64,000 nt of DNA. Origin: Halapricum salinum. Its GTDB lineage: Archaea; Halobacteriota; Halobacteria; Halobacteriales; Haloarculaceae. The DNA lies in assembly GCF_004799665.1 (NCBI RefSeq), contig NZ_CP031310.1:1914887-1978886 (forward strand), given 5' to 3'. Both the position numbers and the translations under genes were made by a program. Numbering within the stretch: position 1 is the first letter of the stretch; the number at the start of each line of letters is the position of its first letter. A model generated the notes under the pieces. It was given only the letters and a program-made list of their open reading frames with translations, was not told the origin of the DNA and did not search any database. Below, piece by piece: positions 2,715 to 61,676 of the stretch.

Positions 2715-4280
2715 ATGGGGTTGGAATCGACGTCCAAGGGGTGGAGAGAGACGCTTGCGACGGTCTTGCTCGCGGTCGTGGCGATCGGATTACTCGGATT
2801 CGTGTTCTGGATATTTCGGACCGGTATCGAGTTGGTCGTGGCTACGGGTGCGACGCCGCTGGCGATCGGGGTAGCCGGCTCGATCGCGGTACTGGGGTTC
2901 GTACTCGGGCGTTCGGGCGGTCTCTCCGTGGGGCTACGAATCACCGCCTACCTGGCGGCGATCGCGTCGGTGTCGCTGCTGTTCGTCGGGTTCGTCTGGC
3001 TGCTCGCGGTCGTTCTGGTCGGGCTCACGCTCGGTGTCGCGACGGGATTCACGGTCGCCAACGCCCTCGCGCTCGGGATGGGCGGGCTGGCCGCGTTCGT
3101 CCTCCTCGGTGCGATCCTCCACGGCGATACCGCCGAGAGCTGGGCGCTGAACCTCCGCATGGTCGCCGCCATCGTACTGCTGTCGTTGTGTTCGATCGTG
3201 TTCTTCGCGCTCGTCTGGACCGCCGTGCTCCTGGTGGGGATGATCGTCTTCCCGGGCGACCTGGCCGCCGTGCTTGCGACGGTGGTCGCGACTGCGGTCA
3301 TCGTCTGGGCCGTCTCCCGGGAGACGGGTCAGTCAGCACTGGAAGAACGGGCTGACGCGCGCACCGTCTCTGCCGAGGAGTATCCGGAACTCCACGATCG
3401 GGTCACGCGGGTCGCGACCCAGCTCGGAGTGCCGGTTCCGACAATCGCGCTCTCTGATCGCGACGCACCGGAGGCGATGGCCGTCGGCTTCAGACCGTCG
3501 ACGGCACACCTCGTGCTCTCGACGGGGACGCTCGACGCCCTCGACGGCGAGCAACTCGACGCCGTTCTGGCGCACGAACTCGCCCACGTCAAGAACCGCG
3601 ACGCGATGGTGATGACGCTGGTCTCGACACCAGTCGTCGTGCTCGATGGCATTCGGGCGAAGCTGCTCGGGAATCTTGAACGCTCGGACGGGACGTACAA
3701 CGGATTGAGCGAGACCGAACTCTGGGGCGACGACGAACAGTGGCGCATCACCGAGCCCGGTCCGATCGAGCAGCGACTCTCGAATCCACGCGTGGGCGTC
3801 CTCGCCTGGCTGGCGGCGGCGGTCGGCGGCTGGATCGCGATCGTCACGTTCCGTGATGGTGAGACAGACAGTCGTGAGGGCTTGCTGGTGCGGCTCGTCG
3901 TGGCCGTGTTCGTCCTCGCGCTGCTGGTGACGTGGTTGGCGAGCCGCGCCATCGTCGCGGTGTTCTCTCGTGCTCGTGAGATCGTCGCCGATCGAACGGC
4001 TGCGGAGGTGACGGGATCGCCCGCGGCCCTCGTGAGCGCGTTGCAGGCTCTCGACGACCAGATCGAGGCCGCGCCGACCCGGGACCTTCGGCAGGTGTCG
4101 AGCGTCTCATCGCTGTCGATCATCCCGCTGGATCGGGGTGTGCTGGCTGTCACCCACGGCCAGACCGAAGCCCCGGACCTCGTCCAGCGTCTGCGGCAGA
4201 AACTGTTCGGGACCCATCCGACGACCGAGTCACGGATCCGGAAGCTGGAAGCGATGGATGCCGAGCAAGAAGCCGCGTGA
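2715..4280 (+). CDS. Membrane M48 family metallopeptidase (HtpX-like), long form
   Basis: A 521-residue membrane protein. The ATG at 2715 gives MGLESTSKGW before the first membrane span; the longer frame from 2646 would add unlike sequence. About six hydrophobic segments fill residues 15-210, longer than the two or three in classical HtpX. They are followed by the protease domain with HELAHVKNRD, where the first zinc-binding His is residue 287. A second region with two more spans separates this from REIVADR, the conserved ExxxD element. C-terminal THPTTESRIRKLEAM matches the THPPxxxRI signature of the family. Expected role: ATP-independent membrane protein quality control. This is one of three M48 genes in the window (others at 19430 and 60502) and the most divergent. 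Confidence 0.88.
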   Translation: MGLESTSKGWRETLATVLLAVVAIGLLGFVFWIFRTGIELVVATGATPLAIGVAGSIAVLGFVLGRSGGLSVGLRITAYLAAIASVSLLFVGFVWLLAVVLVGLTLGVATGFTVANALALGMGGLAAFVLLGAILHGDTAESWALNLRMVAAIVLLSLCSIVFFALVWTAVLLVGMIVFPGDLAAVLATVVATAVIVWAVSRETGQSALEERADARTVSAEEYPELHDRVTRVATQLGVPVPTIALSDRDAPEAMAVGFRPSTAHLVLSTGTLDALDGEQLDAVLAHELAHVKNRDAMVMTLVSTPVVVLDGIRAKLLGNLERSDGTYNGLSETELWGDDEQWRITEPGPIEQRLSNPRVGVLAWLAAAVGGWIAIVTFRDGETDSREGLLVRLVVAVFVLALLVTWLASRAIVAVFSRAREIVADRTAAEVTGSPAALVSALQALDDQIEAAPTRDLRQVSSVSSLSIIPLDRGVLAVTHGQTEAPDLVQRLRQKLFGTHPTTESRIRKLEAMDAEQEAA

Positions 4281-7994: not shown

Positions 7995-8440
7995 GAAAAC
8001 CCTCGACCCGCTGGCGGTCGCTGAGCAGGATATCCTCACTACGTTCGGATAGGGCCTGCTCAGCGACCGCCACCGAGTCTCGCCCTTTCATCCACCAGGG
8101 GACAGCACAGCAGCCTGCCCTTCCCCGGGTCGCAGCATAAACGCTGCTCCCGGCCACTGCGGGGCGGTCAGGAAGCGTGTCGCTCGTCGAACGACGAGCG
8201 ACCGGGGAGGAGTGGGGCCACAATATTGCGGTTGTGGTCGCGGGCCTGGCGGAATGAAAGGGCGAACCACGGTCGCGCCGGAGGGGAGTCGCCTGAGCGA
8301 CCCCTATCCGAACGTAGTGAGGATATGTCGCTCAGCGACCGCGAGCGTGGTGAGGGCTTTCGAGGAGGTGGAATCACTAGTAGCTGCGGAATCGTTTCAG
8401 GCTCCTAGCGAGCGTGGTGAGGGCTTTCAAGAGCGGGTAT
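7995..8440. repeat. Nested-palindrome intergenic element, copy 1
   Basis: This fills the 573-base gap between rpiA and thi4. Outer arms 7995-8056 and 8296-8364 are imperfect inverted repeats of each other; both contain GTCGCTGAGC and, further in, the same 20-odd bases around TCACTACGTTCGGATAG. Within the left arm 8013-8029 pairs perfectly with 8055-8071 (17 bp). The middle contains GCCTGCCCTTCCCCGGGTCG, a hairpin at 8179-8202 (10 bp, GAAC loop) and a GAAAGGGCGAACCACGG box. The block CGAGCGTGGTGAGGGCTTTC occurs at 8342 and again at 8409, so the right end is partly duplicated with a 67-base period. The same architecture recurs at 24857-25374. No protein of plausible composition is encoded. Confidence 0.85.
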
Positions 8441-8470
8441 TCGTTGCTTTAGAATCGATTCCTCCCCAAA

Positions 8471-19429: not shown

Positions 19430-20314
19430 ATGCAGTGGAACGCAGACTGGGGACTCCGCTGGCGGATGCTCCTGACGATGATCTTGCTCGGCGTGCTGTA
19501 CGTCTTCTTCATCGGCGCGCTTGCGACCGCTGGCGTCGGCCTGCTCGGAATCGTCGTCGTGATGGGGCTGTTCAGCTTCGTACAGCTCTTCTTCAGCGAC
19601 AAGCTCGCCCTCCGGAGCATGGGTGCACACGTCGCTGACGAAGACGAGTATCCCGAACTCCACGACAGCGTGAGTCGGCTGGCCCAGCAGGCCGATCTAC
19701 CGAAACCGCAGGTCGCGGTCGCCGACTCGCAGGTTCCCAACGCCTTCGCGACCGGGCGCTCGCAGAAGAACGCGACCGTCTGCGTGACGACGGGGATCAT
19801 GGAGACGCTCGATCAGGACGAACTCGAAGGCGTCCTCGCGCACGAACTGGCTCACATCAAGAACCGCGACGTGATGGTGATGACCATCGCCTCCTTTCTG
19901 TCGACGATCGCCTTCATCATCGTGCGCTGGGGCTGGCTGTTCTCGGGTGGTCACGGCCACGGCCGGGGCAACAACCAGGCCCCGATCTGGGTCGCCATCC
20001 TCGTCTCGCTGGTCGTCTGGATCGTCTCGTTCCTGCTGATCCGCGCCCTCTCGCGGTACCGCGAGTACGCCGCCGACCGCGGCGGGGCGATCATCACCGG
20101 CCAACCCTCCGCACTCGCGAGTGCACTGATGAAAATTTCCGGGCGGATGGACAAAGTGCCCAAGGAGGACCTGCGTGAGCAGGCCGAGATGAACGCGTTC
20201 TTCATCGTCCCGATCACCAAGGGGTTCATCGGTAATCTGTTCAGAACGCACCCTGGCACCGAAAAGCGGATCGAGCGGCTGCAGGAACTAGAGCGGGAGA
20301 TGGAAACTGTCTAA
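19430..20314 (+). CDS. htpX: Membrane protease HtpX
   Basis: A 294-residue M48 metallopeptidase of classical length. Two N-terminal spans (residues 12-58) precede the conserved SDKLALRSMGAH and QVPNAFATGRSQKNATVCV. The zinc site is HELAHIKNRD, with the first His at residue 138, completed by REYAADRGG after two further spans (residues 152-210). The C-terminal THPGTEKRIERL matches the family. A His-rich loop (GGHGHGRGNN) between spans is unusual. The pspAB gene follows 25 bases downstream on the same strand, so the two are likely co-transcribed. Expected role: degradation of damaged membrane proteins under membrane stress. Confidence 0.93.
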   Translation: MQWNADWGLRWRMLLTMILLGVLYVFFIGALATAGVGLLGIVVVMGLFSFVQLFFSDKLALRSMGAHVADEDEYPELHDSVSRLAQQADLPKPQVAVADSQVPNAFATGRSQKNATVCVTTGIMETLDQDELEGVLAHELAHIKNRDVMVMTIASFLSTIAFIIVRWGWLFSGGHGHGRGNNQAPIWVAILVSLVVWIVSFLLIRALSRYREYAADRGGAIITGQPSALASALMKISGRMDKVPKEDLREQAEMNAFFIVPITKGFIGNLFRTHPGTEKRIERLQELEREMETV

Positions 20315-24856: not shown

Positions 24857-25374
24857 CTAGGAAACGGTGACAACAACGCGACCAAGCAGGGAAAGCCCTC
24901 GACTCGCTGGCGGTCGCTCTGCCGGATATCCTCGTTCGCTTTCGCTCCCTCGGATAGAGCCGGACAGAGCGACTCTCTTCCAGCGCCAGCGAGTCTCGCC
25001 CTTTCGATCCGCCAGGTACGCCCCCGCACAGCGGGCCTGCCCTTCCCCGGGTCGCGCCACGAGGGCGCTCCCGGCCACGGCAGGGCGGTCAGGAAGCGTG
25101 TTCCGCGCGATCAGCGCGGAACCGGGGAGGGGTGGGGCGACAACAATGCGGTTGTGGTCGCGGTCCTGGAGGACTGAAAGGGCGAACCACGGTCGCGCTG
25201 AACAGGGAGTCGCTATGTCGGCCACTATCCGAGGGAGCGGAGCGACTGAGGATATGCCGCGTAGCGACCGCGAGCGTGGTGAGGGCTTTCGAGGAAGTAG
25301 CTGCGGTGGTGACTGTTCCTAGCGAGCGTGGTGAGGGCTTTCGAGGAAGTAGCTGCGGTGGTGACTGTTCCTAG
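24857..25374. repeat. Nested-palindrome intergenic element, copy 2
   Basis: This fills most of the 630-base gap between the antitoxin and the electron-transfer flavoprotein gene. The ends are CTAGGAA (24857) and TTCCTAG (25316-25322). The first 70 or so bases and the last 70 are imperfect inverted repeats, both containing GAAAGCCCTC, GCGGTCGCT and ATATCCTC in the same order. Inner pairings are GACTCGCTGGCG (24901-24912) with CGCCAGCGAGTC (24984-24995), GTCGCTCTG with CAGAGCGAC, and a 9-bp hairpin at 25100-25122. Conserved boxes GCCTGCCCTTCCCCGGGTCG, GGCGGTCAGGAAGCGTG and GAAAGGGCGAACCACGG match copy 1 at 7995. A 52-base unit at the right end is repeated in tandem (25271-25322, 25323-25374). 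The remaining 25375-25424 holds nothing I can identify. Confidence 0.88.
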
Positions 25375-46347: not shown

Positions 46348-47052
46348 GTGAACCGACGCCACTTCCTGGCTGGTACGGCCTCGGCCGCCGCGCTCCTGGC
46401 CGGCTGTGCTAGCAGCGGCGAATCGCCTCCGAACACCGACGATCCGGCGACCGACGACCCACCGAGTAGTGATCCGACGACCGAGCCGCCGACCACCGAA
46501 CCGCCGACGACAGAGCCGCCGACCACCGAACCGCCGACGACAGAGCCGCCGTCGGATCCGGCGGACGGTGCAGCGCTCGTCAACGGGAGCTTCGAGTCGG
46601 ATCTGGAGGGCTGGACGAAGGGCAAGGATCTGCCGGCCGACCCCAACAACCCCGACCAGAAGGTCGATTCGGAGATCAAGGTGACGACCGACCGCGCCTC
46701 CGAGGGCGATACTGGCCTGTTCGGCTTTCTCGACGGCAGCGCCGACGACGGAACCATCTGGGTCCAGCAGGAGGCCGACCTCTCGGAGGTCTCGACGCTC
46801 AAGGTCGACGGCTACAGCGAGCAGGAGTCGTTCAACACGGTCCTGCAGGTCGCGACCTACGCCGGCCCCGTCCCCGAGGACGGCCTCGTCGAGAGGGACT
46901 TCGACCGCAGCAACTCGCTGTGGGACCACGAAGGATGGAAGACCTACGAGTACGACGTCGACCACGACGGCGAGGGCCTGATCGCCGTCGGCCTCAACAT
47001 CGTCTGGGAGACCAACGCTGCGGGGGTCCTCGACAACGTGCGGCTGGAGTAG
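46348..47052 (+). CDS. Tat lipoprotein with Pro-Thr-Glu repeat linker
   Basis: A 234-residue protein using a GTG start at 46348. MNRRHFLAGTASAAALLAGC is a twin-arginine lipoprotein signal (lipobox LAGC, Cys20). A spacer of repeated TTEPP units (residues about 44-66) is encoded by an almost perfect 15-base tandem repeat (TTEPP encoded by ACNACNGANCCGCCG-type codons at 46480-46555). It leads to a C-terminal carbohydrate-binding-like beta-sandwich (VNGSFESDLEGWTKGKDLP, GEGLIAVGLNIVWETNAAGVLDNVRLE). That last domain resembles CBM-type galactose-binding folds in which a GWxxx motif starts the domain. Cell-surface carbohydrate or polymer contact is plausible. Confidence 0.78.
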   Translation: MNRRHFLAGTASAAALLAGCASSGESPPNTDDPATDDPPSSDPTTEPPTTEPPTTEPPTTEPPTTEPPSDPADGAALVNGSFESDLEGWTKGKDLPADPNNPDQKVDSEIKVTTDRASEGDTGLFGFLDGSADDGTIWVQQEADLSEVSTLKVDGYSEQESFNTVLQVATYAGPVPEDGLVERDFDRSNSLWDHEGWKTYEYDVDHDGEGLIAVGLNIVWETNAAGVLDNVRLE

Positions 47053-48901: not shown

Positions 48902-48975
48902 TACCGTTCGTCGACGGGGACGAACTCGGCGTCGCTCGGGCCGGTGTAGCGCGCTCGCGGGCGGATGAGACGGTT
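48902..48975. repeat. Duplicated citrate synthase 3' end (left copy)
   Basis: A 74-base sequence identical to 49187-49260, the last 74 bases of citrate synthase up to the final bases of its stop codon. It encodes, on the minus strand, the final 24 residues (from RLIRPRARYTGP) and then a TAG rather than TAA stop. It is separated from the right copy by the 211-base hairpin element. No functional protein is expected. Confidence 0.95.
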
Positions 48976-48976
48976 A

Positions 48977-49186
48977 TCTACCACTTTTTCCTCGTCGGGT
49001 ATCCTCGCTCACTGTGTTCGCTCGCGGGTCACTTCGCTCCCCGCTCGCGCGTACGAGACTCTCACTCCGCTCGAGTCTCGCGCTCGCTGCGGGTACCACT
49101 CCTCGCAAAAACTTGGGGAAAAAGGCTGCCGTCTCACGCTGTTCGACGGCAGTGAACCGACGGCTTCGCCGTCGGATATCTTCCAT
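48977..49186. repeat. CAAAAACTTGGGG hairpin element, copy A
   Basis: Lies exactly between the two 74-base direct repeats. From left to right: CCACTTTTT and TCGGGTATCCTCG; three palindromic modules, including GAGACTC (49055-49061) with GAGTCTC (49073-49079); the invariant box CGCAAAAACTTGGGGAAAAA (49104-49123); hairpin 1 (49126-49133 with 49145-49152, 8 bp); GTGAAC; hairpin 2 (49157-49164 with 49168-49175, 8 bp, TTC loop). Copies at 53102 and 61345 share the boxes but have different stem sequences. Confidence 0.88.
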
Positions 49187-50319
49187 TACCGTTCGTCGAC
49201 GGGGACGAACTCGGCGTCGCTCGGGCCGGTGTAGCGCGCTCGCGGGCGGATGAGACGGTTGTCCTCCTGATATTCGAGGACGTGCGCGATCCAGCCGCCG
49301 GATCGGCTCATCGCGAAGATCGGAGTGAAGAGGTCGATCGGGATGCCCATCTGGTAGTACGTCGACGCCGAGTAGAAGTCGACGTTCGGCGCGAGGTCCT
49401 TGTTCTCGGCCATATACTGCTCGATGGCCTGACTCATGGAGAACCACTTGTAGTCGCCGGCAGCCTCGCCGAGGTCGCGGGACTTCTCGCCGAGGATCTT
49501 CGCCCGTGGGTCCTTGACGTTGTAGACGCGATGGCCGAACCCGGGGACGCGCCGGCCGTTTTCGAGCGCGTCGTCGACCCATTCGACCGCCGACTTCTCG
49601 CTGTCGTCGACTTCCTTGAGCATCCGCATGACGTTCTGATTGGCCCCGCCGTGGAGGCCGCCCTTGAGCGTTCCAATCGCACTCGTCACCGAGGAGTAGA
49701 TGTCCGACATCGTCGAGGCGGTGACCATCGCGGCGAACGTCGAGGCGTTGATTCCGTGGTCAGCGTGGAGGACGAGGGCCATGTCGAACACCTCCGCGAG
49801 AGTATCGTCGGGCTCCTCTCCGTTGAGCATGTACAGGAAGTTCGCGGCGTGGCTCAGGTCTTCTCGCGGTTCGACGGGCGCTTCGCCGTCGCGCAGGCGT
49901 TTGTACGCGGCGACGATCGTCGGCATCTTCGCGGTGATCCGCATTCCGCGCGTGAGATCGGCCTCCCGGTCCCCGGGCTCATTGCCGGCGTCGTCGTAGG
50001 CCGAGAGCATCGACGTGGCGGTCCGGAGTGCGGCCATGGGGTTCTCTTCGGCCGCTGCGAGTTCCTCGACCGTATCGAGAACGCCGTCGTCGACGGCGCG
50101 GTAGCCGGCCATCTCCTCGGCGAACGTCTCCAGGTCGTCTGCGGCGGGCAACTCCCCGTGCCAGAGGAGATAGAGGACCTCCTCGTAGCTGGCCTCACGT
50201 GCCAGGTCCTCGATCGTGTAGCCCCTGTAGATGAGCCGTCCAGCGTCGCCATCGATGTCGCTCAGTGCTGATTCGGCGACGAGGACACCTTCCAGACCCT
50301 TCTTGAGGTCGTCTGACAT
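49186..50319 (-). CDS. gltA: Citrate synthase
   Basis: A 377-residue enzyme starting MSDDLKKGLEGVLVAESAL at 50319. Landmarks: catalytic-site VLHADHGINASTFAAM (first His), LKGGLHGGANQNVMRML, VPGFGHRVYNVKDPRAKIL (second His region), DFYSASTYYQMGIP with the catalytic Asp, and the terminal RARYTGPSDAEFVPVDER. It condenses acetyl-CoA and oxaloacetate at the entry to the citric acid cycle. Its last 74 bases are present twice (the extra copy at 48902-48975), with the hairpin element between; the gene itself is intact and of normal length. Confidence 0.97.
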   Translation of the reverse strand: MSDDLKKGLEGVLVAESALSDIDGDAGRLIYRGYTIEDLAREASYEEVLYLLWHGELPAADDLETFAEEMAGYRAVDDGVLDTVEELAAAEENPMAALRTATSMLSAYDDAGNEPGDREADLTRGMRITAKMPTIVAAYKRLRDGEAPVEPREDLSHAANFLYMLNGEEPDDTLAEVFDMALVLHADHGINASTFAAMVTASTMSDIYSSVTSAIGTLKGGLHGGANQNVMRMLKEVDDSEKSAVEWVDDALENGRRVPGFGHRVYNVKDPRAKILGEKSRDLGEAAGDYKWFSMSQAIEQYMAENKDLAPNVDFYSASTYYQMGIPIDLFTPIFAMSRSGGWIAHVLEYQEDNRLIRPRARYTGPSDAEFVPVDER

Positions 50320-50536
50320 ACCTTCTAGGTCTCGACCTTGGGGGAAAAACATTGTCGTTCGCCCGTCTGGTGACTGTCTGTTTCGGATCGAAACTAACAC
50401 AATTTCGGCTATTTCTCCGACGATCGGGCAGAATCGAGGGTGATATCTCGTCGAGTGGCTGGATTTGGCCGATTCTACCCCCCGATGCCGGCGTCCGGCC
50501 GAACGCTTTTTTCTACTGCCCGCGAATCGCCATCCT

Positions 50537-53101: not shown

Positions 53102-53256
53102 ACCACTTAGTTTCCACTTTTTACTGCGTCGGGTTCGAGTCCCGCCTCCGGCGCGCTCGAACCTCTCCTTGCAAAAACTTGGGGAAAAACGACCTGCTGA
53201 CTCAGCCTTCGGCTTCGTCAGCAGTGAAACGCCGCCTCCGGCGGCGTATGCTGGTC
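53102..53256. repeat. CAAAAACTTGGGG hairpin element, copy B
   Basis: Directly follows the TAG of the desuccinylase gene. It contains CCACTTTTT (53113-53122) and GTCGGGTTCGAGTCC, then one palindrome (TTCGAG with CTCGAA), the box TGCAAAAACTTGGGGAAAAA (53170-53189), hairpin 1 (53194-53201 with 53217-53224, 8 bp), GTGAAA, hairpin 2 (53230-53236 with 53240-53246, 7 bp, TCC loop) and GTATGCTGG. It is shorter than copies A and C because fewer palindromic modules precede the box. Confidence 0.87.
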
Positions 53257-60501: not shown

Positions 60502-61341
60502 ATGAGACATCCAGGCCTGAAACTCCGAATGGCGGTCGTCGGATCGATCCTGTTCGGATTCTACGCCCTCGTTGCAGGGTTGCTCTACCTGACCTTCGGT
60601 GGGACGATGACCGTTCTCGCGGCCGTCCTGGTGGGCAGCGTCCTGCTGATCGGTGCACAGTACAAGATCGGCAAGTGGGGCGCCCTCAAGAGTGTCGGGG
60701 CACAGGACATGCCGGAAGACGACCCGCGCTTCCGTGAGATCCACCGGACCGTCGAGGAGCTGAGCGACGAGATGGGGATCGACAAGCCCCGGCTGATGAT
60801 CGCGGACATGGGCGTCCCCAACGCCTTCGCCGTCGGTCGAAAGGGTGCCGGCGTCGTCGTCGTCTCCTCACAGCTCATCCAGTTGCTCGACAAAGAGGAA
60901 CTCGACGGCGTGATCGCCCACGAACTGGCCCACATCAAGAACCGCGACGTCGTGATGATGGTCATCGGCCAGGGGATCGCGACGATCGTCGGCCTCGTGG
61001 CGCAGTTCGCCGTGATGTTCGCCGGCGACAACGACATCGCCGACCTCTTCCTCGGTATGATCGTCGGGAACATAGTTCAGTTCCTCGTCATGTTGTTCGT
61101 GCTGGCGATCTCGCGCTACCGCGAGTACGTCGCCGACAGTGACGCTGCCGGTGCGATCGGCCAGGGCGACCCGCTCGCCCGCGCGCTCGAGAAGATCAGC
61201 AACACCGACCACAGCCGGAGCAAGGTCAGTGAGGAGGCCAGCGCGCTGTGTATCTTCGGCGAATCGAAGAGCTTCCTCTCGAAGATCGTCTCGACGCACC
61301 CGCCGACCGAAAAGCGGATCGAGAAACTCCGTTCCTACTAG
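60502..61341 (+). CDS. htpX: Membrane protease HtpX (second classical copy)
   Basis: A 279-residue M48 metallopeptidase. Two spans at residues 12-53 are followed by GVPNAFAVGRKGAGVVVVSSQ, the zinc motif HELAHIKNRD (first His residue 140), two further spans, REYVADSDAAGAIG, and the C-terminal THPPTEKRIEKLRSY. It is closely related in layout to the htpX at 19430 but has no pspAB partner. Copy C of the hairpin element begins a few bases after its stop. Its role should again be membrane-protein quality control, perhaps under different conditions given its separate strong promoter. Confidence 0.93.
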   Translation: MRHPGLKLRMAVVGSILFGFYALVAGLLYLTFGGTMTVLAAVLVGSVLLIGAQYKIGKWGALKSVGAQDMPEDDPRFREIHRTVEELSDEMGIDKPRLMIADMGVPNAFAVGRKGAGVVVVSSQLIQLLDKEELDGVIAHELAHIKNRDVVMMVIGQGIATIVGLVAQFAVMFAGDNDIADLFLGMIVGNIVQFLVMLFVLAISRYREYVADSDAAGAIGQGDPLARALEKISNTDHSRSKVSEEASALCIFGESKSFLSKIVSTHPPTEKRIEKLRSY

Positions 61342-61344
61342 GAA

Positions 61345-61540
61345 CCACTTTTTCCGCCTCGGGTTTCCTCGCGCGCTTTGTAGAGCGCGCTGCGGGAACA
61401 GCGTTGCGGCTTCGCCGCAACGGCATTCGGTCGCGGGCGTCGCCCGCGACCCGCGGCGCAAAAACTTGGGGAAAAAAGCCGGAATCGCCTTGGGAGGGCG
61501 ATTCCGGAGAAACGGCGACTCTGTCGCCGTATGCTGGCCA
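61345..61540. repeat. CAAAAACTTGGGG hairpin element, copy C
   Basis: Begins with CCACTTTTT (61346-61354) and CTCGGGTTTCCTCG, three bases after the htpX stop. Three strong palindromes follow: GCGCGCT with AGCGCGC; GTTGCGGC with GCCGCAAC; GTCGCGGGC with GCCCGCGAC. Then come CGCAAAAACTTGGGGAAAAA (61457-61476), hairpin 1 (61479-61489 with 61497-61507, 11 bp), GAGAAA, hairpin 2 (61513-61519 with 61523-61529, 7 bp, TCT loop), and TATGCTGGCC. The longest hairpin 1 and best preserved palindromes of the three copies. The rest of the 392-base gap up to 61733 holds the core fragment at 61550 and then nothing else that I can identify. Confidence 0.9.
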
Positions 61541-61549
61541 ACTCTACAG

Positions 61550-61676
61550 CAGCAGGCCTGCCCTTCCCCGGGTCGCGCGCTCACGGGTCACTGCGTTCCC
61601 CGTTCGCAATCGAGACGCTCCCTGCGGTCGCGTCTCGCACGCGCTCCCGGCCACCGCTGGCAGTCGGACGTGTCGA
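61550..61676. repeat. Core fragment of the nested-palindrome element
   Basis: GCAGGCCTGCCCTTCCCCGG continues into GTCGC and, further on, GCGCTCCCGGCCACCGC, matching the conserved core of the elements at 7995 and 24857, but the outer inverted arms are absent. The variable loop here is longer and itself palindromic (GAGACGC with GCGTCTC). It lies 10 bases after hairpin element copy C, so two repeat families are joined here. Confidence 0.7.

Follow-up and report, generated by a model that had tools for sequence, protein, structure and literature searches.

We describe a real, widespread and apparently uncatalogued family of dispersed hairpin repeats, three copies of which lie in a 64,000-nt stretch of the Halapricum salinum genome (contig NZ_CP031310.1; this whole stretch is the window). 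Judging from the sequence, its members are probably quasi-palindromic bidirectional terminators at haloarchaeal gene ends, which would have been copied at the DNA level. If so, they would form a portable and recognisable terminator family of haloarchaea, of use in annotating 3' ends and in testing how archaeal polymerases stop. The orientation-dependent duplications found at some copies point to an insertion or copying route unexplained by the enzymes tested.

Three copies of one element in the window

The copies, designated A, B and C, occupy positions 48981-49175, 53114-53254 and 61345-61537. Each comprises the 5' end motif CCACTTTTT, a hairpin (hpI), the box GCAAAAACTTGGGGAAAAA, and hairpins II and III; the initial annotation had reported a 3' motif in two of three copies, and TATGCTGG indeed follows in B and C and is absent from A. 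That this three-copy repeat is real is evident from the confinement of its two motifs to the same three sites in the window: the box CAAAAACTTGGGG occurs at 49106, 53172 and 61459 (0.22 sites expected), with no further site there within two mismatches, and CCACTTTTT at 48981, 53114 and 61345 only (0.05 expected). Of the starts given earlier, 61345 was correct, and those at 48977 and 53102 were moved to 48981 and 53114. Likewise, the element was said to begin right after a plus-strand stop codon in B and C; the gap measures 3 nt in C and 12 nt in B. The arms of the two hairpins recognised earlier, here II and III, are exactly complementary in all three copies, as claimed. A further hairpin, hpI, lies between CCACTTTTT and the box and had been missed, as had the extra hairpins in A and C. 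The features are as follows.

Copy A
48902..48978, +: left duplication X, remnant of the citrate synthase 3' end (76/77 identical to 49187-49263; 2-nt gap to CCACTTTTT)
48981..48989, +: 5' end motif CCACTTTTT, 5' strand of helix P1, with T5 tract (sequence)
48990..49104, +: hpI region, enlarged by extra hairpins (sequence and fold)
49105..49123, +: box GCAAAAACTTGGGGAAAAA, 3' strand of P1, with two T5 tracts in the reverse complement (sequence)
49126..49152, +: hairpin II, CTGCCGTC/GACGGCAG (sequence and covariation)
49157..49175, +: hairpin III, CCGACGGC/GCCGTCGG, with no TATGCTGG after it (sequence and covariation)
49187..49263, +: right duplication X, the true citrate synthase 3' end (sequence; Pfam PF00285)
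49186-50400, minus: citrate synthase gene beside the copy (Pfam PF00285)

Copy B
53114..53122, +: 5' end motif CCACTTTTT, 12 nt past the stop codon of an AstE/AspA-family gene
53123..53170, +: hpI region (fold)
53171..53189, +: box (sequence)
53194..53224, +: hairpin II, CTGCTGAC/GTCAGCAG (sequence)
53230..53246, +: hairpin III, CGCCGCC/GGCGGCG (sequence)
53247..53254, +: 3' end motif TATGCTGG (sequence)

Copy C
61345..61353, +: 5' end motif CCACTTTTT, 3 nt past the stop codon of an M48 (HtpX-like) peptidase gene
61354..61457, +: hpI and two extra hairpins (fold)
61458..61476, +: box (sequence)
61479..61507, +: hairpin II, CCGGAATCGCC/GGCGATTCCGG (sequence)
61513..61529, +: hairpin III, CGGCGAC/GTCGCCG (sequence)
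61530..61537, +: 3' end motif TATGCTGG (sequence)

Paired ends and covarying hairpins

The core of the element reads 5'-CCAC(C)TTTTT - hpI - AAAAA-NN-TGG-...-AAAAA-3' and is usually followed by two covarying hairpins and TATGC. The box, previously described as constant and unpaired, turned out to be neither across the whole family: AAAAAC(N)TGG pairs with the 5' CCACTTTTT to form helix P1, both ends change together in other subfamilies, and the box is constant within a subfamily only. Four compensatory versions of the P1 ends were found: (i) CCA/TGG, in about 190 copies, (ii) CGA/TCG, in 9 copies, mostly from one genome and thus representing few independent changes, and (iii) GGA/TCC and (iv) GTA/TAC, both in elements located after EF-2. 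One CCAC copy carries a TCG box. The T5 and A5 tracts adjoin the P1 triplets, and T5 is present on both strands.

That stem sequence varies while pairing is kept could be quantified. Among 99 distinct copies, the covariation score was 0.566, compared to 0.141 for shuffled alignments and at most 0.084 with the pairing partners slid, in an alignment that was fitted to the covariance model and so leans towards it. Changes on both sides were observed in 17 of the 18 pairs of hairpins II and III.

Copy number and distribution

The box search and covariance model proposed in the initial annotation revealed a dispersed family. Exact GCAAAAACTTGGGG boxes number 11 in the 3.45 Mb genome, and a model built on the box and hairpins II/III matched 44 sites at E<=0.001 and 51 at a looser limit. 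The same model found matches in 41 of 59 relatives, where copy numbers reached 37 in a different genus and 23 in a different family, and in 13 of 119 genomes drawn evenly across the phylum, all 13 belonging to the same order. In a scan with the exact pattern, the matches listed came mainly from haloarchaeal contigs, and the bacterial ones among them lacked the 5' motif. Four box matches were obtained in viral contigs, none with the surrounding element, and a low-sensitivity blastn search of plasmid and phage collections with one 144-bp copy gave no match. No curated Rfam model matched, and no account of the family was found in Rfam or in the literature searched, the coverage of which was partial.

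The genome contains 51 CCACTTTTT sites, mostly paired with a box. The box-less sites were considered as a possible autonomous version of the element; those read proved to be coding or unrelated (L240, L241, L243, L247) or a deleted copy (L246). In a congener, locus L341 (G002:C1:700900-704300) is an array with five model matches within 3.4 kb.

Placement at gene ends

The start of the element lies 0-6 nt past a plus-strand stop codon in 81 of 144 copies (mode 2-3 nt), when strong plus-strand stop codons are counted, compared to 24 of 6000 random positions (0.4%). Several other copies abut the 3' ends of tRNA genes, and roughly a sixth of all copies run antisense to the gene concerned.

Half of the abutting genes (44/88) can be grouped in 16 shared clusters, the largest being those of chaperonin (10) and EF-2 (4) genes, both of which are generally highly expressed. 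In the H. salinum genome itself, copies follow two chaperonin genes and EF-2. This recurrence of host genes may reflect shared ancestry in related genera. Within the taxonomic family, the element was found at the stop codon in 4 of the 28 closest chaperonin genes. At L294, L297, L299 and L307, a separate hairpin module directly follows the chaperonin stop codon, and the 5' motif of the element begins 65-120 nt further on. The strict motif follows 1 of 28 EF-2 genes, other end versions occur in L265, L276, L282 and L287, and EF-2 genes of other taxonomic families are followed by related versions whose box differs. Among stop codons preceding the element, TGA is depleted (9/88 vs 184/366), for which the class of genes could be responsible.

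Flanking duplications

The stretch immediately left of the 5' end recurs downstream in 34 of 203 copies, compared to 2 of 1010 mismatched pairs. As a control, the flanks were also compared for inverted duplication, which gave background scores only. The duplications are direct, 17-160 bp long, and usually comprise the tail of a gene; some form tandem arrays. Of 20 callable cases, 19 have the intact gene 3' of the element and on the minus strand (the exception is L082). Copy A is such a case, flanked by 77-bp direct repeats at 48902-48978 and 49187-49263. Its left repeat keeps the old junction, i.e. the stop codon, GGGG, and the ATG of the next gene, which indicates that the element entered at the citrate synthase end. 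Congeners lack the element at this gene end, where the downstream genes differ, so that it is not a clean empty site. The same 70-bp duplication is present in congener locus L014 and in L146 of Halapricum sp. CBA1109.

Function and origin of the element

Lying 3' of genes, the element carries T5 on both strands, and the simplest function for it is that of a bidirectional terminator; this placement, together with the tracts, suggests that the signal is encoded in the DNA. In Haloferax volcanii, T5C terminates 95% of transcripts in vivo and intergenic termination sites are T stretches (PMC7237163). A polymerase coming from the left gene would stop at the T5 that closely follows the stop codon; since T5 precedes all hairpins in the sense orientation, the hairpins would not be needed for this. 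A polymerase coming from the right would pass hairpins III and II and stop at the two T5 tracts (TTTTTCCCC..GTTTTT). Copying would take place on DNA, possibly through a template switch in replication or repair, and new copies at a gene end that spare the gene itself would be kept; an antisense copy could survive since one of the two duplicated gene ends stays intact. DNA-level copying is supported by the excess of duplications over mismatched pairs and by the absence of RVT_1 matches from 30 genomes. Termination accounts neither for the flanking duplications nor for the tight adjacency to stop codons. The loops are also strand-biased (122 C(TNC)G vs 29 C(GNA)G, counting unique triloops with a C-G closing pair), which counts against a strand-neutral terminator, as such a terminator predicts no bias.

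The initial annotation read the repeat as either a structured RNA or a mobile element that recognises hairpins, and neither reading suits it fully: G-U pairs are scarce, and although dispersal and duplications support copying to new sites, Y1/RAYT enzymes are absent from this genome. It is conceivable, and we propose it only tentatively, that DNA is copied by a process requiring neither Y1 transposase nor reverse transcriptase, which places hairpin elements exactly at gene boundaries and leaves a variable-length duplicate of the gene tail in the antisense orientation only, and that these copies have come to serve the host as terminators. Rather doubtful is a MITE-like non-autonomous DNA transposon, with CCAC(C)TTTTT and its complement as terminal inverted repeats, a putative transposase whose specificity classes would be the covarying ends, and termination as an incidental effect. 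Dispersed copies, tandem arrays, flanking direct duplications and congeneric gene ends without the element would all suit such a transposon, and the inverted repeats exist in four covarying versions, though hairpins II and III lie outside the core. What argues against it is that the duplications, found at 34 of 203 copies and 17-160 bp long, do not have the fixed length of a target duplication and that sense copies lack them; moreover, an end-motif search of this genome, in which part of the sites were read, showed no copy with a gene between its ends, and the plasmid and phage collections gave no match at the low sensitivity used.

The strong covariation of the helices and the strand-biased loops would be expected of a structured RNA, whether a 3'-UTR element or an independent small RNA encoded on the plus strand. 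Plus-strand G.T mismatches also outnumber A.C mismatches (36:17, p 0.013), although this is a weak test because the stems are related, and the bias derives from that relatedness. We consider an RNA unlikely: G-U pairs make up about 1.2% of hairpins II/III (18 of about 1555), which seems low for a conserved RNA; the antisense copies and the lack of an Rfam match do not favour it; and transcription should already end at the T5 just past the stop codon, ahead of the structure. In the known prokaryotic cases, the enzymes recognising hairpins are Y1/RAYT proteins. An element of the PATE or REPIN/BIME type, moved by a Y1 (IS200/RAYT) transposase, would explain the hairpins near the ends and the mosaic of hairpin modules, and PATEs are known from haloarchaea (PMC3119063). 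They make no target duplications (PMC3119063), and Y1_Tnp (PF01797) had no match in the present genome (G000), which has the most copies, or in the copy-rich genomes G007, G018, G020 and G028. A SINE-like retroelement could have produced variable-length duplications with one tidy junction by target-primed reverse transcription, and yet RVT_1 (PF00078) was found in 0 of 30 genomes, this one included, compared to 3 of 14 control genomes. With neither a Y1 transposase nor a reverse transcriptase match in the genome, both models fit poorly; we hold the former to be very improbable and the latter to be the most improbable of all those considered.

Comparison with known systems

The T5C terminators of Haloferax resemble the element in having T5 in the intergenic region after a gene, with hairpins near some sites; they are described as single T stretches plus hairpins (PMC7237163), whereas the element is a dispersed covarying repeat family whose ends pair and which has T tracts on each strand. 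SMRs of Haloquadratum are likewise haloarchaeal, about 110 bp long and present in many copies, with inverted terminal repeats and no transposase (PMC3119063). By description they are set apart from the element in lacking target duplications, and SMR-A targets PATE/IS605 palindromes (PMC3119063); the element is located at gene ends, with long duplications at some copies. The PATEs of Haloquadratum share palindromes near their ends and the lack of a transposase gene, but are related to IS605-type ends and have neither inverted terminal repeats nor duplications (PMC3119063), and the genome bearing the element has no Y1 transposase. Bacterial REP/BIME/REPIN sequences are also extragenic hairpin modules in mosaic and tandem order (PMC2817692); the element differs in being archaeal, in having no RAYT-type transposase, and in its T5/A5-bounded core with covarying ends.

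Other repeats in the window

Another, larger repeat, made up of 43-91-nt blocks and containing the motif GCCTGCCCTTCCCCGGGTCGC, is present in two copies, at 7995-8460 and 24891-25373, 16.9 kb apart. This motif also occurs at 61556-61576, just downstream of copy C, and similar sequence follows other copies in the genome. Related 106-nt stretches are located at 3520-3625, 19788-19893 and 60866-60971, the last inside the M48 peptidase gene, and may represent paralogous peptidase genes. A tandem repeat at 46474-46548 with 15-nt spacing (CCGACGACCGAGCCG...) probably encodes a repetitive protein linker.
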